From Lysobacter firmicutimachus (lineage in GTDB: Bacteria; Pseudomonadota; Gammaproteobacteria; Xanthomonadales; Xanthomonadaceae): a DNA stretch of 64,000 nucleotides. Every line of letters starts with the position of its first letter. Position 1 is the first letter of the stretch. The translations under genes were made by a program, and so were the position numbers. The stretch covers positions 248,001 through 312,000 of the forward strand of contig NZ_JBANDL010000002.1 of assembly GCF_037027445.1 (NCBI RefSeq), read 5' to 3'. Below are positions 5,126-18,721 of the stretch, one piece after another. Under the pieces are notes generated by a model. It made no database searches. It was given only the letters and a program-made list of their open reading frames with translations, and was not told the DNA's origin.

Positions 5126-6010
5126 TCAGCGCAGGTGGGTCTGCGGCTTGGCCGGCGCGGAGGCGAATTCGCCGCTGGGATCGTCGATCAGCGGCGGATT
5201 GGCGCGGATGCTGCGGTACATCGCCGGTACGCCGCCGCGGCGCAGGCACTGCAGCACGATGTGCGAAGTGATGCGGGTGAAGTCGCGCAGCGGCTTGAAA
5301 TGGCTGGCGCGGAACTGCTCGTCCGAATCCTGGCTCCGGTAGCGCGATTCGATCGGCACCGAGACGCAGCGCGTGCCCAACTGCTGCGCCGCCGACATCA
5401 GGATCTGCGCCTCGAACACGAAGTCTTCGCCGGGCACCTCGCGCAAGGCCATGACTTCGGCCGGGTACAACCGCTGCCCGCTCTGGCTGTCGGCGATCTG
5501 GTAGCCGGTGCCCCAGGCCACGCCCCAATCGCCGAAATTGTTGGCCAGCCGGCGGTAGGTCGGTTGCGCCGCGCGCTTGCGCAGGCGCGCGCCGATGACG
5601 ATGTGGCCGGGATGGCGATTGGCGCTGTCGATCAGGCGCGCGATGTCGCCGGCCGAATGCTGGCCGTCGCCGTCCATGGTGACCGCGGCCAGAAAGCCGC
5701 GCCGCAAGGCTTCGGCGAAACCGTCGCGCAGGCTGGCGCCCTTGCCCTGGCGCTGGGCGTGGCGCAACACGGTCACCGGCAGATCGGCGATGCGCTCGCC
5801 GGTGCCGTCGTCGGAGCCGTCGTCGATCACGATCACGTGCGGGCACTGCGCCAGCGCGCCTTCCACGACCTCGCGGATGCGCAGGGCTTCGTTGAGCGCG
5901 GGAATCACCACGGCGACGTTGTTGCGGTCCAGCCGCGCGGCGCGCGGTCGGTCGGCGGCGTTGCCCGGGGCGGCTGCGTCGCGTCGCGGCGACCCGGCGA
6001 GATCAGTCAT
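5126..6010 (-). CDS. Family 2 glycosyltransferase (dolichol-phosphate-mannose synthase-like), pigment cluster
   Basis: 294-aa GT2 enzyme with a GT-A fold. It opens with VVIPALNEALRI, then has VIDDGSDDGT (nucleotide-sugar binding) and VTMDGDGQHS (the D-x-D-type metal site), the standard order for polyprenyl-phosphate glycosyltransferases. No membrane helices follow, so it acts in the cytoplasm or on the membrane face. ATG at 6010 overlaps the stop of the chain-length-factor gene by 8 nt and gives the correct N-terminus; the open frame further upstream lies within the neighbouring gene. It is the last gene of the three-gene minus-strand operon. Glycosyl or acyl transfer to the polyene head group is the inferred role. 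Confidence 0.82.
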   Translation of the reverse strand: MTDLAGSPRRDAAAPGNAADRPRAARLDRNNVAVVIPALNEALRIREVVEGALAQCPHVIVIDDGSDDGTGERIADLPVTVLRHAQRQGKGASLRDGFAEALRRGFLAAVTMDGDGQHSAGDIARLIDSANRHPGHIVIGARLRKRAAQPTYRRLANNFGDWGVAWGTGYQIADSQSGQRLYPAEVMALREVPGEDFVFEAQILMSAAQQLGTRCVSVPIESRYRSQDSDEQFRASHFKPLRDFTRITSHIVLQCLRRGGVPAMYRSIRANPPLIDDPSGEFASAPAKPQTHLR

Positions 6011-6836
6011 GGGCGAACTCCACCCGCAGAATCCGGCCGGCGCCCGCCGGCAGTGCGAGCCGATCATGGCCCGAGGCCAGGGCGTCGAACAAGGCCAACA
6101 TCGGCGCGCCGGCGTTGCCGGTTTCGCGTCCAGACAGCTTGCCGCCGTTGGGCCAAGCGGGCTCGCCATCGGCGTCGTCCATCCACGCGGACAGGCGCGG
6201 CCCGTGCGCCGCGGACGACACGTGCGCCAGCACCAGCGCGGCGCCCAGCAGGCCGCGGCTCGGCGCCACTTCCTGCAGCGGGCCGGTGGCTGCGCCGTCG
6301 TAGCCGACCAGCAGCACCGCTTCGTCGCCGGCGGCGAGTTGCGCCAGCGCTTCGATCAGGCCCTGGGCGAAGCTGGCTTCGAGCGCGCTGATCGCGGTCG
6401 CCGGGCGCATCGCACCGGCGCCGATGGTCCAGTAGCCGGCGGCGGCGTTGTGCACCGAGTTGTGGAAGCGGGTCGGCGAGATCGTGCGCGGCTCGCGGGC
6501 AAGGGTGGCGCACATGTAGTCGGTGATGGCGATGTCGCCGTGGCTGGAGGCGAACACCGACGGCAGGCTGGCCGGATCGCGGCCGGCGTCCTGGCAGGCC
6601 GCCAGGGCCACTTCCAGCGCCACCGCGACCGTATCCGGCGCGCGCCGGCGCTCGTTCGGCGCCAGCAACTGCGGCGAGGGCCGGCTCGGCGCCGCTTCGG
6701 CGTCGCTGCCGTGGGCGACGAACTCGCGCGCCGCCGCCCACGAGGGCAGGCCGCGACTCCAGTAACCGATGCCTTCGACGATGGCGCTCAGGCCGGCAGA
6801 CGCGCCGGTGCGGGGTTGCGTGACGGCGGAACTCAT
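6003..6836 (-). CDS. Beta-ketoacyl synthase chain-length factor (ApeC-like)
   Basis: 277-aa protein of the Ketoacyl-synt_2 family, the partner subunit of the polyene ketosynthase. The characteristic stretch is SPTRFHNSVHNAAAGYW, with FASSHGD earlier. It lacks the Cys-His-His set of an active ketosynthase, as expected for a chain-length factor. ATG at 6836 overlaps the TGA of the upstream ketosynthase (ATGA), so the two subunits are probably made in equal amounts, as usual for heterodimeric KS-CLF pairs. The mature partner complex sets polyene chain length in aryl-polyene and xanthomonadin synthesis. Confidence 0.85.
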   Translation of the reverse strand: MSSAVTQPRTGASAGLSAIVEGIGYWSRGLPSWAAAREFVAHGSDAEAAPSRPSPQLLAPNERRRAPDTVAVALEVALAACQDAGRDPASLPSVFASSHGDIAITDYMCATLAREPRTISPTRFHNSVHNAAAGYWTIGAGAMRPATAISALEASFAQGLIEALAQLAAGDEAVLLVGYDGAATGPLQEVAPSRGLLGAALVLAHVSSAAHGPRLSAWMDDADGEPAWPNGGKLSGRETGNAGAPMLALFDALASGHDRLALPAGAGRILRVEFAHD

Positions 6837-8032
6837 GCGCGGCCGAACACCAGCGAGCAATTGTTGCCGCCGAAGCCGAAGGAATTGTTCATGGCGTAGC
6901 GGATCTCGGTGCGGGCGTCGGCGAAACGGATCTGCGGGCCGTTGCCCGGGTCCGGCGCGACGCTGTTGAGCGTGCCCGGCAGATGACCGCGCTCGAGCGC
7001 GAGCAGGGCGATCGCCGATTCGACGATGCCGGCCGCCCCGAGCGTGTGCCCGGTCCAGCCCTTGGTCGAACTGGCGTGCAGGCCGGGCGGGAACAGCCCG
7101 GCCACCGCCAGCGCCTCGATCGAATCGTTGGCCGGCGTGGCGGTGCCGTGCAGGTTGAGATAGCCGACCTGGCCGGCGTCGATGCCGGCGCGGGCGAGAG
7201 CGTCGCGCATCGCCAGCCGCGCGCCCAGGCCTTGCGGATGCGGCGAGGACATGTGGTGGGCGTCGCTGGACTCGCCGTAGCCGCACAGTTGCAGCGCGGC
7301 CTCGTCGCCGGCGTCGAGGCGTTCGAGCACGGCGAAGCCGCCGGCCTCGCCCAGCGACAACCCGTCGCGCTGCGCGTCGAACGGGCGGCAGGGCGCAGTC
7401 GACACCAACTGCAGCGAGTTGAAGCCGAACAGCACGCTGCCGCACAAGGTGTCGACGCCGCCGACCAGGGCCGCATCGGCGAGCCCGGCGCCGATCAGGC
7501 GCGCGGCCTGGGCGAACACTTTGGCGCTGGACGAGCAGGCCGTCGCCACGGTCACGCAGGGGCCGCGCAGGCCGGTGGCCGCGGCGACGAAGGCGCCGAG
7601 CGAATGCGGGGTATGCAGGGACGGCCGTGCCAGGTCCTCAGGAAAGCGACCGTCGTCGCCGAGCCGCGCATAGGCCTCCTCGGTGGCGCCGATGCTCGAG
7701 GTCGAGGTGCCGACGATCACCGCGACCCGCTCGGCACCGTGGCGCGCGACGGCGGCGGCGATCGCCGTTTCCATGCCGTCGGCTTGCAGGCTCAGCCAGG
7801 CCAGGCGATTGTTGCGGCAGTCCCAGTCGGCCAGAGGCGCCGGCAGGGCGGCCTCCTCCAGCCCCTCGACCCGACCGATCCAGCAGTCCAGCGGTGCTTC
7901 GCCCGGCGCCAGCGGCACCAGATCGTTGCGGCGCAGGCCGCTGCGGCGCTCGCGCAGGGCCTGAGCCTGGGCCTCCAGGCCGCGGCCGAGCGCGGTGGTG
8001 GCGGTATAGGCGCGGACCGCCAACGGCGGCAT
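6833..8032 (-). CDS. 3-oxoacyl-ACP synthase (KAS II-like ketosynthase) of the pigment cluster
   Basis: 399-aa ketosynthase that performs decarboxylative Claisen condensation on the growing polyene chain. The catalytic triad is complete: Cys166 in TACSSSAK, His295 in LHGTATP and His329 in GWTGHTLGAAG. It ends with the Gly-rich FGFGGNNCSLV motif. The start is uncertain: ATG at 8032 is chosen, but an in-frame GTG at 8053 would add seven residues; neither has a clear Shine-Dalgarno. A TATACT hexamer at 8094-8089 on this strand is a reasonable -10. It is first of three overlapping genes (KS, CLF, GT2). Confidence 0.88.
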   Translation of the reverse strand: MPPLAVRAYTATTALGRGLEAQAQALRERRSGLRRNDLVPLAPGEAPLDCWIGRVEGLEEAALPAPLADWDCRNNRLAWLSLQADGMETAIAAAVARHGAERVAVIVGTSTSSIGATEEAYARLGDDGRFPEDLARPSLHTPHSLGAFVAAATGLRGPCVTVATACSSSAKVFAQAARLIGAGLADAALVGGVDTLCGSVLFGFNSLQLVSTAPCRPFDAQRDGLSLGEAGGFAVLERLDAGDEAALQLCGYGESSDAHHMSSPHPQGLGARLAMRDALARAGIDAGQVGYLNLHGTATPANDSIEALAVAGLFPPGLHASSTKGWTGHTLGAAGIVESAIALLALERGHLPGTLNSVAPDPGNGPQIRFADARTEIRYAMNNSFGFGGNNCSLVFGRA

Positions 8033-8088
8033 CGGAGCGGGTGCGGACGTCACGTAGTCGGTAGAATCGGGCGAGGGGAACCGCCGGC

Positions 8089-8094
8089 AGTATA
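8089..8094 (-). promoter_or_regulatory. Candidate -10 element for the KS-CLF-GT2 operon
   Basis: TATACT on the minus strand, about 35-55 nt before the ketosynthase start. No convincing -35 is visible at the right spacing. A TAGAAT hexamer on the plus strand at 8062-8067 could serve the divergent DUF218 gene. Confidence 0.35.
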
Positions 8095-8217
8095 GCGAGG
8101 GGGCCGCGGGGCCCGCCGGACCGCCCCGGCGGGGCGCGCTGAACGCTTCATCGGCCGCCGCCGCGCGCACCCGGGTTTTCGTCCACACAGGTCGCCGAGG
8201 TTTTCGCGCCGCATCGC

Positions 8218-8901
8218 ATGAGCAGTCGCCTGTCCCATCGCCTGTCGTTGTTCGGCGACCGCGACGTGCTGCACGTCGCGGCGGTGGCGTCGGCCGCCTG
8301 CGTGCTCAGCGCCGGCCTGGTCTACGTCGGTTACTTCGTCCATGTCCTGCGGGTGGCGCGCAATGCGCCCTGTCAGCCCGAGCGCGGCGAGTGCGTGTTG
8401 CTGTTCGGCAAGCACGCGCCGGGCGGACGCCTGGACCACGATTTCGAAGCGCGCCTGGACCGTGCGGTGTCGTTGTGGCGCGAACGGCCGCCGGCCAGCG
8501 TGGTCCTGCTCGGCGGCGGCGCCGACGACGAGCCCACCGAAGCCGAGCTGGCCCGTTCCGGGCTGCTCGCGCGGGGGCTGTCCGCCGATGCGCCGTTGCG
8601 TCTGGAGGCCGAATCGCGCGACACCCTGCAGAACCTGCGCAACGCCCGCGCACTGCTCGGCGAGGGCATGCGCTCGCGGGTGACCCTGCTCAGCAGCCGC
8701 TACCATTTGGCGCGTTGCGCCTTGTTCGCGCGCCAGCTCGGCTACGACTGGGAACTGTGCGCGGCCGAGCCGCGGCTGCAGCTGAGCCCGCGCATGCTGT
8801 TGCGCCTGGCCGGCGAAGCGGCCTACGTGTGCATGAGCGACATCGGCGCGCGCTGGGCGCGGCTGATCGGCAACCGGCGCATGCTCGAGCGGATTCGCTG
8901 A
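8218..8901 (+). CDS. DUF218 (YdcF/SanA-like) membrane protein
   Basis: 227-aa protein with one N-terminal membrane helix (about residues 18-40), followed by a cytoplasmic or periplasmic DUF218 domain. Family signatures are VLLFGKHAPGGRLDHDFEARLDRA, VVLLGGG, the acidic ESRDTLQNLRNA and LLSSRYHLARC. These match the S-G-G, E-x-x-S-x-x-T-x-x-N and H-x-x-R positions of YdcF/SanA proteins, which are linked to envelope integrity, although the biochemical reaction is unknown. It is divergent from the ketosynthase operon, with a 185-nt gap. Length is normal for the family. Confidence 0.8.
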   Translation: MSSRLSHRLSLFGDRDVLHVAAVASAACVLSAGLVYVGYFVHVLRVARNAPCQPERGECVLLFGKHAPGGRLDHDFEARLDRAVSLWRERPPASVVLLGGGADDEPTEAELARSGLLARGLSADAPLRLEAESRDTLQNLRNARALLGEGMRSRVTLLSSRYHLARCALFARQLGYDWELCAAEPRLQLSPRMLLRLAGEAAYVCMSDIGARWARLIGNRRMLERIR

Positions 8902-8979
8902 TTCGCTGATTCGCTGATTCGGGATTCGGGATTGGGGATTCGGGATTGGGGATTGGGGATTGGGGATTGAGGATTGGGG
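8892..8979. repeat. Short tandem repeats GATTCGCT and GGGATTSGGGATT
   Basis: Three GATTCGCT units begin in the last codons of the DUF218 gene and its stop. They run into an array of GGGATTCGGGATTGGGGATT-like 7-8 bp units. Related strings occur at 21113-21141 and 40689-40711, both near gene ends. Confidence 0.8.
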
Positions 8980-9169
8980 CGATGCTGCGGGCGCACATCG
9001 CCGGGGCGGTCCGTGCGGGGGCGACGGATGTCGTTTTTCCTTGTTTTCCAGGTTTTTTTACGGGTCCCGGACGGTACGGCGGCGGCGTCGCCCGATTCCG
9101 GGGCGGGGGCCGCGTTGCGAAGCCGCTCACGGTTTGCGTGCGTGGCGGCGAAGGCCGCGCGGGCATGGG

Positions 9170-9295: not shown

Positions 9296-9457
9296 GTGAA
9301 GCAATCCAGTACCGCGAAAGCGTCCGCACCGGTCGTCGCACCGGTCCCGCGCGTCAAGCTGCAACCGACTTCGGCGCCGCTGAGCAAGCACGCGCCGGCC
9401 TCGGCCTCGGCCTCGTACGCGCCGCGTTCGTGCAGTCGTTTCATCTACTGCGTCTGA
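9296..9457 (+). CDS. Putative RiPP precursor peptide 1
   Basis: 53-aa peptide starting at GTG 9296, preceded by a strong AAGGAG site with 8-nt spacing. The first two thirds are Ala/Pro/Ser/Lys-rich without structure, like a leader. The C-terminus reads YAPRSCSRFIYCV, with two Cys, a Ser directly before the first Cys, and a single Arg-Phe-Ile-Tyr between them. The next small gene ends in the same pattern. The frame is open upstream, but only across the tandem repeats and the leader, so the GTG with its ribosome-binding site is preferred. It lies directly upstream of a LanM-like gene, so it is probably a substrate. No database match was checked. Confidence 0.65.
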   Translation: MKQSSTAKASAPVVAPVPRVKLQPTSAPLSKHAPASASASYAPRSCSRFIYCV

Positions 9458-9521
9458 TCCTGCGTCCCTGGCTGCGGCGCATCCGCGCTGCGGCTCGCCA
9501 ACCGTCGAAGGAGATGGTCCG

Positions 9522-9674
9522 ATGAAGATGAAGAAGTCCAAGCCCGCCCCGACCACCGCGTCCAAGCAGCGCCAGGCCGTACCGGCGCTGGCGATCGGCG
9601 AACTGCGCAAGCAGGCCGCTTCCGGCGCGAGCTTCGTGCCGGCCACCTGCCGCCGCATCTATTGCATTCCGTGA
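9522..9674 (+). CDS. Putative RiPP precursor peptide 2
   Basis: 50-aa peptide starting MKMKKSKPAP after an AAGGAG site (9508-9513). It is only partly similar to peptide 1 in the leader (Lys/Ala/Pro-rich, then ALAIGELRKQ), but its C-terminus PATCRRIYCIP repeats the [S/T]-C-x-R-I-Y-C pattern. The ALAIGELRKQ helix may be a recognition segment for the modifying enzyme. Stop at 9672-9674 leaves 58 nt before the DUF4135 gene. The two peptides look like diverged paralogues feeding the same enzymes. The gene is short, but ribosome-binding site, spacing and the shared core make it credible. Confidence 0.68.
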   Translation: MKMKKSKPAPTTASKQRQAVPALAIGELRKQAASGASFVPATCRRIYCIP

Positions 9675-9732
9675 GCGGCACCGCGGCCGGCGCCTCGCGC
9701 CGGCCGCGCCGTTGCGAGGGCGACGCGGCGCG

Positions 9733-12108
9733 ATGAGCGAATCCCTGCTGGACCTCGCGCCCGCGCCTGCGCGCGCGGCGCCGCCCGCTTCGCCTGCCGC
9801 CCGTCGTCTGCTGGCGGCTGTGGCCGGCGGCGGCTCGGCCTGGTGGTGGCCGCGGCGCGCGCGCATCGGCGAGGACGGTTTGCTCGTCCCTTTGCGCGCA
9901 TGGCGCGGCGCGCGTGCGGCGCGCCGCATCGGCGCGGCCTTGCACGACGCGCGTCTGGCGCCCTGGCTGCGTTTTCTCGATGCGCTCGATCGCGATTGCG
10001 CCGCGCTGGCGCGCGCGCATGCGCGACGCGTGGCGCCGTCCGCGCTGGCGCTCGACAACGGCGAGTTGCATGCGCCGGTGCTCGACCTCGCCCTGCATTG
10101 GTGCCTGGCGCCGCGCCGCCCGCGCCTGGAAGCGCGCCTGCGCGCTCTGCGCGAGCGCCACCGTGAGTTCCTGGCCTTGTTCCTGCGCCGGCTGCGGCGC
10201 GATCTGCGCAGCGGCGCGCTGCAGCGGCAGGCCGGGGCCGACGGCCGCGTCGCGGCGTTGTGGGCGCATCCGGAAGAAACCCACCACGGTGGCCAGCGGG
10301 TGCTGCGTGCGACCTGGGACAACGGCGTCGCCCTGGCCTACAAGCCGCGGCCGGCCGATGCCGAAATCGCCTTCCTCGGCGCCGACGGCGTATTCGCCTG
10401 GATCAATGGCCTGCGCGGCGGCCCCGCTGCGCTGCGGCTGCCGACACTGAACAGTTTTCATGGCGATGGCCGCGATCGCGACTATCTGTGGCAGGAGTGG
10501 ATCGGCGCGCCGCCCGGCTACGGCCGCGTGCGCGGCGGGCCGCTGCGCGCCGTACGCTTGAGCCGGTCCCGGGCGCGACGTCTGTGGCGCGACGCCGGCG
10601 CATTGGCCGGCGCCTGCTTCGGCTTCGGCCTGGTCGACCTGGGGCCGGGCAATGTGGTCTGCGGCCTGCGCCGCGGTCGCCCGCAGTTGTTGCCGGTCGA
10701 CCTGGAGGTCTGTCTGTTTCCGGTCCAGGGCCTGGAGGACACCGGCCTGACCGTCGGCGACCGCGACCGCGGCCGCTATCCGGCCGGGTTCGAGCGCGAT
10801 CCCGGGCGCGGCGACAGCGAAGGCCCGGACTGGGCGTTCTTCGATGCCGACGACGGCTCGGCGCGATTGTGCGCGGTGGCGCGGCCCTGGCGGCGCGAGA
10901 GCGCGCCGGGGCTGGTCGCCGATCGCGACGGCCGGGTCGGCTACGGCGCCTATGCGCCCGATTTCCTGCGCGGCTTGTTCGATCTGTGGATGCGCATCCA
11001 TTGTCATCGGGACGCGCTGGGCGCCGCCGTGGGGGGACGATTGCGCGGGCGCCTTACCCGGGTGTTGTTGCGGCCGACCCCGGCGTACGCCGAGGCCTTG
11101 GATCCGTTCGCCGGTGCCGCACCGGACCTGCGCGGCTATGTCGCCGCCGAGCGCGCGCAGCTGCGCCGCGGCGACGTGCCGTACTTCTACACCCGGCTCG
11201 ACCGGCCGGCGCCGTTGCTGACCTTGCCGCCGCCCCCCGGGACGCCGCACGCCGTCGCCGGGCGCTTGCCGCATCCGCGCGCGCAGCTCAATCCGCAGCC
11301 GGCGCGCGCGCGCGGCGAGGGGTTCGGGTTGCTCGATCTGGCGGTCGCGGCGCGCGACGCGATCGCCCACGTGATGGCCGATCTGAGCGCGGCGCACGGC
11401 GTCTGCGGCGAATTGCACGAACCGCGCCTGGGCGTGCGCCTGCAATGGTGGGGTGCGCAGGACGGCGAGGCGTGTTTCGACTGGGCCCGGCAGGACCGCC
11501 GGGTGATCTGCCGCTGGCAGGGCGAGCAGGTCGGCCTGCGGGTGGAGGCCTTGGCGGCGCCGGCCGAGCCCGCTGCGCCGCAAGACGACGCCGAGGCGAT
11601 GGCCGCGCGCCTGCTGCGCATCGACCGCATCGACGCGGCCCTGCGCACGCCCTGGACCGACGGCGGTTTCGCCGATCCGGCATTGGAGGCCAGGCTGGAC
11701 GCGCATGTGCGGGAATCGATGGCATGGTTGCAGGCGGTGGTCGATCGTCACGGTTGGCCCGGACGCACCCTGGTCGGCGAGGCCGCGGCCGCGGCGGCCT
11801 GCCGCCTGCTGCAACATGCCGACGGACCGCGGGCGTTTCAGGACCGTTGCCTGCGGCTGATCGCGGCGGCCGCGCGCGCCGGCGACATGGCACTGCGCGA
11901 ACTGGCCTATCTGACCGACGCCCTGCGCGTGCAGCGCGGGCGCAAGCAGCGCTACGGCACCAAGTTCCGGCGGCGCGGGCAGGGGTTCGAGCCTTGTCCG
12001 ATCGAGCGCCCGGGCCAGGTCGACCACCGCCGCCTGGCGATGGGACTGGAGCCGTTGGCCGAGTACGCCGAGCGCATCCGGCGCCAGTTCGCGGCGGCGC
12101 GCGGATGA
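9733..12108 (+). CDS. LanM-like DUF4135 kinase/dehydratase-type protein fused to DUF6624
   Basis: 791-aa protein whose N-terminal about 550 residues match the DUF4135 (LanM dehydratase) fold. Visible are ALAYKPR (Lys204, nucleotide binding), VDLGPGNVV (Asp302, Asn307) and VDLEV (Asp323), which align with the LanM kinase residues. Differences: the usual His of T-D-L-H is Gly304, and the G-D-x-H elimination motif is E-E-T-H (182-184). The C-terminus (about 615-791) is not a LanC cyclase, as no zinc-ligand Cys/His motifs are visible. It matches DUF6624 instead (GWPGRTLVGE, LQHAD, YGTKF, GLEPLAEY). ATG 9733 is preferred over an in-frame TTG at 9712. Its stop overlaps the next start (ATGA). Phosphorylation of the precursors is the inferred activity; dehydration is less certain. 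Confidence 0.78.
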   Translation: MSESLLDLAPAPARAAPPASPAARRLLAAVAGGGSAWWWPRRARIGEDGLLVPLRAWRGARAARRIGAALHDARLAPWLRFLDALDRDCAALARAHARRVAPSALALDNGELHAPVLDLALHWCLAPRRPRLEARLRALRERHREFLALFLRRLRRDLRSGALQRQAGADGRVAALWAHPEETHHGGQRVLRATWDNGVALAYKPRPADAEIAFLGADGVFAWINGLRGGPAALRLPTLNSFHGDGRDRDYLWQEWIGAPPGYGRVRGGPLRAVRLSRSRARRLWRDAGALAGACFGFGLVDLGPGNVVCGLRRGRPQLLPVDLEVCLFPVQGLEDTGLTVGDRDRGRYPAGFERDPGRGDSEGPDWAFFDADDGSARLCAVARPWRRESAPGLVADRDGRVGYGAYAPDFLRGLFDLWMRIHCHRDALGAAVGGRLRGRLTRVLLRPTPAYAEALDPFAGAAPDLRGYVAAERAQLRRGDVPYFYTRLDRPAPLLTLPPPPGTPHAVAGRLPHPRAQLNPQPARARGEGFGLLDLAVAARDAIAHVMADLSAAHGVCGELHEPRLGVRLQWWGAQDGEACFDWARQDRRVICRWQGEQVGLRVEALAAPAEPAAPQDDAEAMAARLLRIDRIDAALRTPWTDGGFADPALEARLDAHVRESMAWLQAVVDRHGWPGRTLVGEAAAAAACRLLQHADGPRAFQDRCLRLIAAAARAGDMALRELAYLTDALRVQRGRKQRYGTKFRRRGQGFEPCPIERPGQVDHRRLAMGLEPLAEYAERIRRQFAAARG

Positions 12109-13298
12109 GCGCGCCGATCGACTGGAGCGGCTTGCGCGCGCACTGGGGGCGTCGCGCCTGCCGCTTGCCGGGCGCTGCGCCGGCGTTGGATCCGGTCCGG
12201 GCCTACGCGCTGGTGCGCCGCGCGGCGCAGCCGTTCCGCGCGGGCACGCGCTTTCTGGCTTTGCCGGACGTGCGTTTCTACGTAGACGGCGGTTGGATGC
12301 GCGCGCCGGGCGATCTGTTGCCCGGCGCCGAAGACGCCGATCCGGCCGGATACGCGCAGCGGGTGCGGGCGCGGCTGGACGGGCGCCGATTCCAGTTGCG
12401 GGTGACCCAGCCGCTGTTTCTCGATTACGAACTCTGGGCGCAGGCGCGCGCGGCCCTGGCCGGTTTGTTCGCGCAGGTCGGTCAGCCGAGTCTGGCGTTG
12501 ACCGCGACCTTGTGGCTGGGCGACGCCGATGCCGCCACGCGCGGGCCGCAAGTCGAGCCGGCCGCGGCGAGTCTGCGCCTGCCGCTGTTGGGCGGTTGCC
12601 TGGCGCGTTGCCGCCGCACCCGTCCGCGCGCGGCAGGCGCGGCGGGGCGGACGCTGTGCGCCGATGCGGGCGAGGCGCTGTACTGGCCGGCGGGCCATTG
12701 GGTCGAAGAGGCCGATCGGGGCACGACGCTCGGACTGGCGGTGAGCATTCCGGTCGGCGGCGAAGAAGCGGCGGTAGCGGTCAAGGACCTGTTGGCCGAC
12801 CTGGTCGACGCCGAACTCGGCACGCAGGCCGAAGTCGCCATGCTCGACTATCCGCCACGTGCGCGCGGCCGCGATGCGATCGCGCCCTTGCGCGCGGTCG
12901 CCGCGCAGATGCGCAGCGCGGTGGCCGGCGGCGCGCTGGAGCGCGCGTTGCGCGCCAGTTGGGCTGCGCGCGCCAGCGCGGCCGGCCTGGAACCGCCACC
13001 GCCGCCGCGCGCGGACGATGCGCTGAGGCCGGCCGACCGCGTCCGCCTGGACCGGCGCAGCCCCCTGCTGCGGCTGGCCGAGGGCGCGCAAGAGTGGTGG
13101 GCCGTCAACGGCCATGTGTTCTCGGTGCCGGTGCATCCGCGGGCGCAGGCGCTGTGGCGGGCGTTGCACGAGCCGGCCGCGGCGACGGTCGCGCAGCTGT
13201 GCGCAGGGCCGCGCCGGCGCATCGACCCGGGGGCGCTGGCCTTGTTGCAGCGCTTGCACGATCTGCGTGCGCTGCAGTGCGAGCGGGCATCGGCATGA
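12105..13298 (+). CDS. JmjC/cupin-like protein with degenerate metal site
   Basis: 397-aa protein, paralogous in layout to the next gene: N-terminal helical part, a cupin-like core ending ALYWPAGHWVEEADRG, and a C-terminal winged-helix-like domain (RSPLLRLAEGAQEWWAVNGH). The H-x-D iron motif of JmjC hydroxylases is replaced by Gln149-Val-Glu151. The distal region has His198, but not at the position of the partner's third ligand. Loss of Fe(II)/2-oxoglutarate chemistry is therefore likely, making it a candidate pseudoenzyme or peptide-binding partner. The start overlaps the DUF4135 stop and its own stop overlaps the next start, so the three proteins are probably translationally coupled. Confidence 0.7.
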   Translation: MSAPIDWSGLRAHWGRRACRLPGAAPALDPVRAYALVRRAAQPFRAGTRFLALPDVRFYVDGGWMRAPGDLLPGAEDADPAGYAQRVRARLDGRRFQLRVTQPLFLDYELWAQARAALAGLFAQVGQPSLALTATLWLGDADAATRGPQVEPAAASLRLPLLGGCLARCRRTRPRAAGAAGRTLCADAGEALYWPAGHWVEEADRGTTLGLAVSIPVGGEEAAVAVKDLLADLVDAELGTQAEVAMLDYPPRARGRDAIAPLRAVAAQMRSAVAGGALERALRASWAARASAAGLEPPPPPRADDALRPADRVRLDRRSPLLRLAEGAQEWWAVNGHVFSVPVHPRAQALWRALHEPAAATVAQLCAGPRRRIDPGALALLQRLHDLRALQCERASA

Positions 13299-14620
13299 AC
13301 GGCCCCTTCGTGCTGCCGCCGCAGGCGCCGATCGAGCGCGACGCGTTGGACTGGGACACGTTCGCGGGCGAAGACTGGGACCGGCGCCCGGTGCTGTTCA
13401 AGGGCGTGCTCGATCGCGCGGGCCCGTTTCGCCTCGACGAGGTCTATCGCAGCGCCCTGGTGGCGACCCGGCGCAGCCGCGCGCGCCTGCCGGGCGATCC
13501 GGACAATGCGGTGGTGACCTTGGACCGCTTGCAGCAACTCGATCCTGCGCCGTGGATGCCGCAGGCCGCGGACGGTTCGTTGGCCGGCTATCGGCGGCGC
13601 ATGCTCGACACGCTCGGCGCGCGCCGCTACGCCCTGGTGATCAGCGCCTTTCATTCCTTCCACCGGCCGTTGTGGCGGCGCGAGCGCGCATTCTTCGCGC
13701 CGCTGTGGCGACGCACCGGCTTGCCGTTGACCGGGGCGATCACGACCTTGTTCCACGGCAACTACGAGTCGACGCCGGTCGGCGTGCACCGCGATCGCTT
13801 CGCCACCTTCATGGTGCCGGTGGAAGGCCGCAAGCGCATGCGCTTCTGGGCGCAAAAGCCGTGGACCGAGGCGGTGTCGACCTTGCCCGACTACCGCGCG
13901 CATCTGGCGACCTCGTTCCTGGTCGAGGCCGGCCCCGGCGACCTGCTGTACTGGCCGGCCGACTATTACCACGTCGGCGAGAGCGTCGGCGGCGGCGTCT
14001 CGACCAGCGTCAACATCGGCATACCGCGCACCGAGCACCGGCCGGTCTACGACCTGGAGGACCTGCTGGTCGAGATAGGCGACGCCGCATCCCTGGTCGA
14101 TCCGGCCGCGCCGCTGCTGCGCGCGCGCATGCCGGCCGGGGTGGCGGCGCTGTGGGACGCTGCCGCGCCCGCGCCGGGGCATTTGCCGCCGCAGTTGCCG
14201 CCGGCCCTGGAGGCGGCGCTGGGCTTGCTTCGCGCCGCGGCGCAGGCGCCGGCGCTGGCCGCGCGGGTGGGCGCGGTGTCGTTGCAGCGCTGGTCGGCCG
14301 GCGGTTTCGAGCCGGTGCCGCCGTTGCGGCGCGTCGCTCGGCCGCCGGCATCGGCGCGGCTGGCGCTGCGGCCCGACAGCGTGGTGTTGCAGCGGCGCGA
14401 GCGCGGCGGCTGGCGTTTCGCCGCCGACGGCCACGGCCTGCGCCTGGACGGCGATGCCGCCGCGGCGCGGGCGCTGCTGGCGCGGCTGCGCGCGGGCGGC
14501 GCCCTCGGCCCGGCCGAGGCCGTGCGCGATGCGAGCCGTCGCGGCCGCGGCGAACGCGAGAGCGTGCTGCGCTGGCTGCTGGCGACCGGCGCGCTGCAAG
14601 TGCGGCGCGGCCGCGAATAA
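13295..14620 (+). CDS. JmjC/cupin-like Fe(II)/2-oxoglutarate hydroxylase
   Basis: 441-aa protein with a cupin_8/JmjC core. The expected facial triad is present: His165-x-Asp167 in VGVHRDRFATFMVP and His226 in LYWPADYYHVGES. The preceding TTLFHGNYEST is typical of bacterial ROXA/MINA-type peptide and protein hydroxylases. The C-terminal 180 residues form a winged-helix-like domain as in that family. It is the last gene of the ATGA-overlapping operon. By context it would hydroxylate the precursor peptides (Arg, Ile or Tyr near the C-terminus are candidates), but a ribosomal or other protein substrate is possible. The stop is TAA, followed at once by a palindrome. Confidence 0.78.
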   Translation: MNGPFVLPPQAPIERDALDWDTFAGEDWDRRPVLFKGVLDRAGPFRLDEVYRSALVATRRSRARLPGDPDNAVVTLDRLQQLDPAPWMPQAADGSLAGYRRRMLDTLGARRYALVISAFHSFHRPLWRRERAFFAPLWRRTGLPLTGAITTLFHGNYESTPVGVHRDRFATFMVPVEGRKRMRFWAQKPWTEAVSTLPDYRAHLATSFLVEAGPGDLLYWPADYYHVGESVGGGVSTSVNIGIPRTEHRPVYDLEDLLVEIGDAASLVDPAAPLLRARMPAGVAALWDAAAPAPGHLPPQLPPALEAALGLLRAAAQAPALAARVGAVSLQRWSAGGFEPVPPLRRVARPPASARLALRPDSVVLQRRERGGWRFAADGHGLRLDGDAAAARALLARLRAGGALGPAEAVRDASRRGRGERESVLRWLLATGALQVRRGRE

Positions 14621-14720: not shown

Positions 14721-15410
14721 TCAGCCGGACAGCCGGTGCGGCTGCGCCTCGCGCGGGGCTTCGATCGCGTAACGGTTCGACAGCGCTGCGCGCAGATGGT
14801 TTTCGTTGCCCGAACACACTGCGAGCAGACGGCAGGGGCCGGGCGCGGCGGCGATGTAGGCGTGGCCCATGGAGCTGTCGAAGTAGATCGAATCGCCGAC
14901 CTCCAGGCGCATCGGTGCATACAGCTCGCTGTGCATCTCGACGCAGCCTTCCAGTACCAGCGCGAACTCTTCGCCGGCGTGGCGGATCAATTCGCCGAAC
15001 TCGTCCAGGCTGCGCGCATGCACGTCGACGATGATCGGCACCAGCCGTTTGTTGAGCAGTTCCGAAGCCGGATATCGATGATCGTAATGCTCGCTGCGGA
15101 TCGCATAGCCCTCGCCGGCGCGGGTGATGCTGCGGCGGCCGGCGAACTGGTCGCTGCCGCTCGCCGCCGGCGCCGCGAACAGTTCGCCGATGTCGACTTC
15201 CAAGCCCTGCGCGATGCGGGTGAGCTTGTCGAAACTCAGCGACATCTTGCCGTTTTCGATCTTCGACAAAGTGGAGATCGGCAGGCCGGTGCGCGCGCCG
15301 ATCTCGGCCAGCGTCCAGCCGCGCTGCCGCCGCAGCGCGCGCAGCGCGACGCCGGGATTGTGGGCGCTGGGAGCGACGGCGGTTACGTGCTTGCTGCGCA
15401 TGGCGGGCAT
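14721..15410 (-). CDS. XRE-family transcriptional regulator with C-terminal cupin domain
   Basis: 229-aa two-domain regulator. The N-terminal HTH_3 (LRALRRQRGWTLAEIGARTGLPISTLSKIENGK, split across residues about 25-60) is followed by a cupin (HAGEEFALVLEGCVEMHSE, then LEVGDSIYFDSSMGHAY). Members of this HTH-cupin group (PuuR/SutR type) sense small amines or amino acids through the cupin. The start is uncertain: ATG at 15410 is used, ATG at 15401 is equally placed, and no strong ribosome-binding site is seen. It is convergent with the RiPP-like operon and divergent from the serine hydrolase gene. A perfect palindrome about 90 nt upstream may be its own operator. Confidence 0.85.
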   Translation of the reverse strand: MPAMRSKHVTAVAPSAHNPGVALRALRRQRGWTLAEIGARTGLPISTLSKIENGKMSLSFDKLTRIAQGLEVDIGELFAAPAASGSDQFAGRRSITRAGEGYAIRSEHYDHRYPASELLNKRLVPIIVDVHARSLDEFGELIRHAGEEFALVLEGCVEMHSELYAPMRLEVGDSIYFDSSMGHAYIAAAPGPCRLLAVCSGNENHLRAALSNRYAIEAPREAQPHRLSG

Positions 15411-15495
15411 GGGAGCGGCCGTAAAGGTTGCCTGCAACGACTCTAGGCGCGCCGCGGGGGCCTTGCCAAGCGGGGGACGGCCCCGTCGCATGCAG

Positions 15496-18650: not shown

Positions 18651-18700
<50 letters not shown>

Positions 18701-18721
18701 AGCCGCATCGCAGCTGTTGGG

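Follow-up and report, generated by a model that had tools for sequence, protein, structure and literature searches.

A conserved five-gene cassette in Lysobacter that pairs short Cys-tailed peptides with a LanM-like DUF4135-DUF6624 protein and two JmjC-type proteins

Genes of the cassette and the shared precursor tail

We examined a window of 64 kb (64,000 nucleotides; contig NZ_JBANDL010000002.1, positions 248,001 to 312,000) from the 5.3 Mb genome of Lysobacter firmicutimachus, in which five plus-strand genes lie together: two short genes for putative precursor peptides, a gene for a LanM-like protein in which a DUF4135 part is joined to DUF6624, and two genes for JmjC-type proteins, designated J1 and J2. 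This cassette probably makes a modified peptide of an unfamiliar kind. Its features, in window positions, are as follows.

9296-9457, plus strand: precursor gene 1; GTG start, 53 amino acids, AAGGAG site, product ends SCSRFIYCV; orthologues in 8 Lysobacter genomes including the source
9428-9454, plus strand: predicted core of precursor 1, S-C-S-R-F-I-Y-C-V, with the shared tail motif
9522-9674, plus strand: precursor gene 2; ATG start, 50 amino acids, AAGGAG site, product ends TCRRIYCIP
9645-9671, plus strand: predicted core of precursor 2, T-C-R-R-I-Y-C-I-P, with the shared tail motif
9733-12108, plus strand: LanM-like DUF4135-DUF6624 protein, 791 amino acids (PF13575, E 5.7e-18); predicted Ser/Thr dehydratase with no recognised LanC domain
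11608-12072, plus strand: DUF6624 domain of that protein, residues 626-780 (PF20329, E 3.7e-13)
12105-13298, plus strand: J1; fold of the JmjC/ribosomal-oxygenase type, iron ligands missing; predicted to be a pseudoenzyme and a partner
13295-14620, plus strand: J2 (PF08007 JmjC_2, E 3.3e-7) with the triad H165, D167 and H226; predicted 2-oxoglutarate (2OG)/Fe(II) oxygenase

The LanM-like gene and J1 overlap by four bases, as do J1 and J2. An initial annotation of this DNA had described two short genes before a DUF4135-DUF6624 protein and, after it, two JmjC-like genes, with overlaps; this layout is borne out, and both precursors have AAGGAG sites. The annotation was also right that the two peptides share a tail, but "Cys-rich" overstates a motif that holds two cysteines.

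Precursor open reading frames were collected through a screen for a Cys-Cys tail, and because of this screen a precursor without such a tail would have escaped. The resulting set comprises 25 precursors (23 distinct sequences) from 14 genomes of the family plus one from the actinobacterium Nonomuraea gerenzanensis. All of them (25/25 in the family, 26/26 with Nonomuraea) end in [S/T]-C-x(3-4)-Y-C followed by one or two residues. The peptides are 43 to 60 residues long and their bodies are variable outside the tail, save for a loose L-x-I-G-like patch recognised by eye. The Ser/Thr preceding the first Cys is the sole Ser/Thr kept in all precursors, as judged by eye from the alignment, and together with the two Cys and the Tyr it makes up everything that the tails have in common; a tail Arg is near-constant in the Lysobacter family and missing in Nonomuraea.

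The tail motif is nearly exclusive to genomes with the cassette. A strict DNA pattern for it, TGYNNNMGNNNNATHTAYTGYNTNTRR, has matches in 12 of the 14 cassette genomes versus 1 of 381 others, and the control, the same pattern read backwards, gave 0 matches throughout. The two cassette genomes without a match, G070 and G369, have tails that deviate in spacing or residues. The lone match outside the cassette genomes, in G298, was considered as a solitary precursor and rejected, since it lies antisense inside what looks like an sspA-type gene (named by eye). Across Lysobacter genomes the Ser following the first Cys is encoded as AGT, AGC or TCG; because these codons differ between genomes, it is the peptide rather than the DNA that appears to be kept, which points to selection acting on the peptide. 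A database search with the Nonomuraea precursor as query returned only the precursor itself. One source labels this precursor (L055:11655-11819) "Thiazolylpeptide-type bacteriocin", and it matched no NCBIfam or Pfam family.

Distribution and insertion site

The search profile was built from the window's LanM-like protein and 21 of its 39 database relatives. Of the 395 genomes of the family searched, 14 from three genera, the source among them, gave full-length matches. A near-identical gene (99.6%) is present in Lysobacter antibioticus HS124, family Lysobacteraceae, and we take these to be the genus and family that the genome searches covered. Up to 20 kb was then fetched around each of the 13 other family loci. 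J1 and J2 homologues stand beside the LanM-like gene in all 13, arranged as LanM-J1-J2 or J1-LanM-J2, although J2 is cut by a contig end at one locus (L041) and its match is split over two frames at another (L039 of genome G273, around 13630-13660), either through a break in the gene or through an error in the sequence. One or two short tail-bearing genes likewise lie near the LanM-like gene in 13/13 of these loci. Database relatives that carry both DUF4135 and DUF6624 include proteins of Streptomyces, Kitasatospora and Micromonospora, and the one actinobacterial locus read, that of N. gerenzanensis, holds the cassette at about 40% identity. A draw of 398 genomes from the phylum contained no cassette besides that of the source genome, and searches of a plasmid collection with the Nonomuraea J1, J2 and LanC proteins returned the same record only. 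The small genes whose company the initial annotation had expected beside homologous LanM-like genes are therefore present at all 13 other family loci and at the actinobacterial one, and its notion of an unclassified cassette of the type that makes ribosomally synthesised and post-translationally modified peptides (RiPPs), with conserved precursors, a LanM-type dehydratase without LanC and proteins of the JmjC fold, is supported.

We compared the flanks of the cassette in 20 Lysobacter genomes, using a ketosynthase-like gene (window 6836-8188) and an XRE-cupin-like gene (14724-15491), both named by eye. Where a cassette genome has both genes on one contig (7 genomes), the distance between them is 6.5-7.3 kb; in 11 cassette-free genomes it is 0.8-2.8 kb. 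In cassette genome G116 they lie on separate contigs, and the ketosynthase-like gene, present in 19/20 genomes, has no match in cassette-free G205. The cassette of the two other genera has different neighbouring genes. The cassette is thus a discrete unit whose members are conserved together. The ketosynthase-like and XRE-cupin-like genes were excluded from the system, because they neighbour each other in genomes without the cassette. Another window gene (8218-8901) is also located between the flanks, and its length alone fits most of the short gaps. A run of short near-repeats (GATTCGCTGATTCGCTGATTCGGGATTCGGGATTGGGG...) is found at 8896-8980, directly 5' of the cassette.

Domains and active sites of the three large proteins

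The only Pfam and NCBIfam assignments of the LanM-like protein are DUF4135, DUF6624 and a partial match to LanM, although a divergent cyclase could escape such profiles. The LANC_like domain has no Pfam match in it at E ≤ 1, and the motifs CHG, CCG and WCYG, sought in the DUF6624 part, are not present there. Its predicted structure has the CylM fold. We compared 29 LanM-like sequences with CylM, whose catalytic residues have assigned roles (PMC4550811). Equivalents of K274, D347, N352, H254 and R506 are present in 29/29, the D252 position is Glu in 29/29, and the T512 position is Thr in 28 and Ser in one. Eight of the nine CylM catalytic positions are kept in at least 28 of the 29, counting Glu for Asp252 and with the Asp364 equivalent placed by position only; the ninth, His349, is kept in 2, the position being G, I, Y, F or M in the other 27. 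Because all four CylM elimination residues are present (Glu for Asp252, His254, Arg506, Thr512), the enzyme is expected to dehydrate, and not merely phosphorylate, Ser/Thr of the precursors. The initial annotation's "phosphorylated, perhaps dehydrated" can be sharpened to this extent on the strength of the alignment. A second DUF4135 protein of the source genome, distant from the window (L001, G000:C2:2170895-2175013), has a LANC_like domain and is apparently a full LanM.

The DUF6624 part has many invariant residues across the 29 sequences; no solved structure stood out for it in the fold comparison, in which the domain was not folded alone. In 59 further genomes of the family the matches listed cover DUF6624 without the DUF4135 part. 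No common RiPP-like context was seen around such genes at seven family loci (L048-L054) and one Armatimonadota locus, where neighbours were not family-searched. Several of these genes start like signal peptides, by eye, and have unrelated surroundings.

J1 and J2 are related to each other (about 26% identity, tblastn E 1e-9) and differ in their active sites. The HxD...H iron triad is kept in 13/13 J2 sequences, and J2 is predicted to be a 2OG/Fe(II) oxygenase. In the merged alignment the HxD columns retain His or Asp in 0/14 J1 sequences and the third triad column is His in 3/14; at locus L047, J1 contains an HRD shifted by two columns and lacks the third-position His. J1 belongs to no Pfam or NCBIfam family, no Pfam E value across 13 J1 sequences being below 0.19. 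Its predicted fold matches the ribosomal oxygenases YcfD, NO66 and MINA53; residues 321-386 of the model also fall inside the range aligned to YcfD and NO66, which takes in their C-terminal part. J1 looks like a pseudo-oxygenase and is a likely partner of J2. The possibility that both JmjC proteins are oxygenases was rejected on account of the loss of HxD in 14/14 J1 sequences, so that of the two JmjC hydroxylases in the initial annotation J2 stands and J1 does not.

Neither a cyclase nor a protease nor an exporter is encoded among the five cassette genes. A LANC_like domain is found somewhere in 12 of the 14 cassette genomes, and 37 of the 38 matches are in open frames of at least 900 codons, as for whole LanM proteins. 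Searches of G089 (97% complete) and G240 (75% complete) found none, and the idea that the pathway depends on a LanC acting in trans was rejected for the Lysobacter family on this account. C39 peptidases are also present in 12/14 cassette genomes; G342 and G369 showed none, and a dedicated C39 protease was rejected on these grounds. In Nonomuraea a stand-alone LANC_like gene of 453 codons (E 6.6e-47) begins before the end of J2. This type of LanC is common, and its overlap with J2 is known from one locus. The initial annotation's remark that no cyclase is adjacent is accurate for the unit in Lysobacter, whereas the Nonomuraea locus contradicts it. LanC could plausibly close the ring in Nonomuraea, where the two genes overlap, and is apparently no general need, as 2 of the 14 cassette genomes of the family showed none.

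Proposed pathway and alternatives

Taken together, we consider it slightly more probable than an even chance that the conserved five-gene cassette is a RiPP pathway in which the [S/T]-C-x(3-4)-Y-C tail undergoes LanM-type dehydration and hydroxylation by J2, aided by J1. The leader would be held by the enzymes, perhaps via C-terminal winged-helix parts of J1 and J2. The DUF4135 enzyme would then phosphorylate the Ser/Thr beside the first Cys and eliminate the phosphate to give dehydroalanine or dehydrobutyrine, to which the cysteine of the YC pair may add to form a (methyl)lanthionine ring. Closure of the ring would be non-enzymatic in Lysobacter and its relatives and would involve the stand-alone LanC in Nonomuraea. 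J2, probably with J1, would hydroxylate the core; Tyr is the proposed target because no other residue apart from the Ser/Thr and the two Cys recurs in all tails, with Arg as a second candidate in the Lysobacter family. Leader removal and export would depend on genes elsewhere, and DUF6624 may act in the place of LanC as a substrate-binding or stabilising part.

The order of the modifications could be different. In an alternative that we consider unlikely, J2 (with J1) oxidises a core residue first, perhaps the Cys after the Ser/Thr or the Tyr, and dehydration takes place only afterwards, which would leave a peptide that is both dehydrated and oxidised and has a disulfide instead of a lanthionine. 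According to the accessible part of PMC10676384, to which all our statements on dehydrazoles refer, CcaM, the enzyme of dehydrazole formation, accepts Ser solely where an azole follows, and its product has no lanthionine, and the invariant Ser/Thr directly before an invariant Cys in our tails resembles such substrates; the nearly complete cassette genome G089 also showed no LanC. However, Nonomuraea does have a LanC, there is no YcaO among the five cassette genes, to which the family search was confined, and we can cite no case of Cys oxidation by a JmjC protein. Dehydrazole systems (CcaM, LanMbC) share with the cassette a divergent DUF4135 enzyme and a target Ser before a heterocyclised residue, here the invariant Cys, but CcaM contains a zinc-independent cyclase domain of the class III type and has a YcaO as partner, where the cassette has DUF6624 and JmjC proteins.

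It is rather improbable, in our estimate, that the DUF4135 enzyme halts at phosphorylation and that the product is a phosphorylated and hydroxylated peptide. The replacement of CylM His349 in 27/29 sequences and the missing cyclase would fit such an enzyme, but the four elimination residues are near-invariant, and a plain kinase would presumably have less need of Arg506 and Thr512. That the cassette is the remnant of a decaying class II lanthipeptide cluster, with proteins no longer acting together, is hardly credible: J1 has lost its active site and one of the 13 other loci has a frame break in J2, but cassettes from two phyla, whose proteins share about 40% identity, still agree in precursor tails, enzyme active sites and membership, and the varied codons of the tail Ser argue for selection on the peptide.

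The dehydration and hydroxylation pathway can be extended, more tentatively and at somewhat less than an even chance, to a new RiPP class in two phyla, in which a cyclase-free LanM-DUF6624 enzyme and a heterodimer of a live and a dead JmjC protein would produce a dehydrated, hydroxylated macrocycle from an 8-residue tail, the dead JmjC protein reading the leader. A new class is possible but would need a product.

Comparison with known systems shows where the cassette departs from them. It has in common with class II LanM enzymes (CylM, LicM2) the dehydratase fold of DUF4135 and almost every catalytic residue, and differs from them in having DUF6624 and no recognised LanC domain, in the loss of His349, in a precursor core that is about 8 residues long and contains two Cys, and in the JmjC pair within the operon. 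The comparisons that follow rest on the accessible parts of the sources. JmjC-type oxygenases are also found in the RiPP clusters of the biphenomycin type, as the JmjC/cupin ornithine hydroxylases BipG/BpmG and PbsQ (PMC12707348, PMC12257519), but those pathways use an MNIO, an arginase and a B12 radical-SAM enzyme, none of which is among the five cassette genes (again the extent of the family search), whereas the partners of J2 in the cassette are a DUF4135 enzyme, the predicted dehydratase, and J1, its apparently dead paralogue. In graspetide systems (PMC13097080) DUF6624 recurs near RiPP clusters and a 2OG oxygenase works with the help of a partner protein (CorC/CorD); in the cassette, by contrast, DUF6624 is fused to DUF4135 and no ATP-grasp ligase is among the five genes. 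YcfD, NO66 and MINA53 resemble J1 in overall fold and J2 in their JmjC_2 family, but they target Arg or His of ribosomal proteins, J1 lacks the iron site, and in the cassette small Cys-tailed peptide genes lie alongside. A preprint on genome mining in Lysobacter (PMC11451712) lists clusters of class II, most of them with precursors of the DUF6229 type; the cassette is not mentioned in its accessible parts. The literature searched, which leaves most subscription papers aside, yielded no description of the cassette and no paper naming DUF4135 and DUF6624 together; the two papers in it that mention both "lanthipeptide" and "JmjC" concern other systems in their accessible parts. DUF4135 products without lanthionine and JmjC hydroxylases of RiPPs are each known, but separately.

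We know of no other arrangement in which a live and a dead JmjC protein are paired in a peptide pathway. If the proposed pathway is correct, a LanM dehydratase, an enzyme type known from lanthionine antibiotics, can do without a cyclase, another domain serving as its helper, and DUF6624 would gain a role, where the one paper in the literature searched that names it gives none. Every step is directly testable, because the cassette is small, its substrates are short and share one tail, and naturally occupied and empty sites exist within the genus.

Elsewhere in the window, ketosynthase-like and glycosyltransferase-like genes (named by eye) occupy the minus strand at 5126-8188, and a simple repeat at about 18660-18710 reads as alternating Gly-Asn in one frame.

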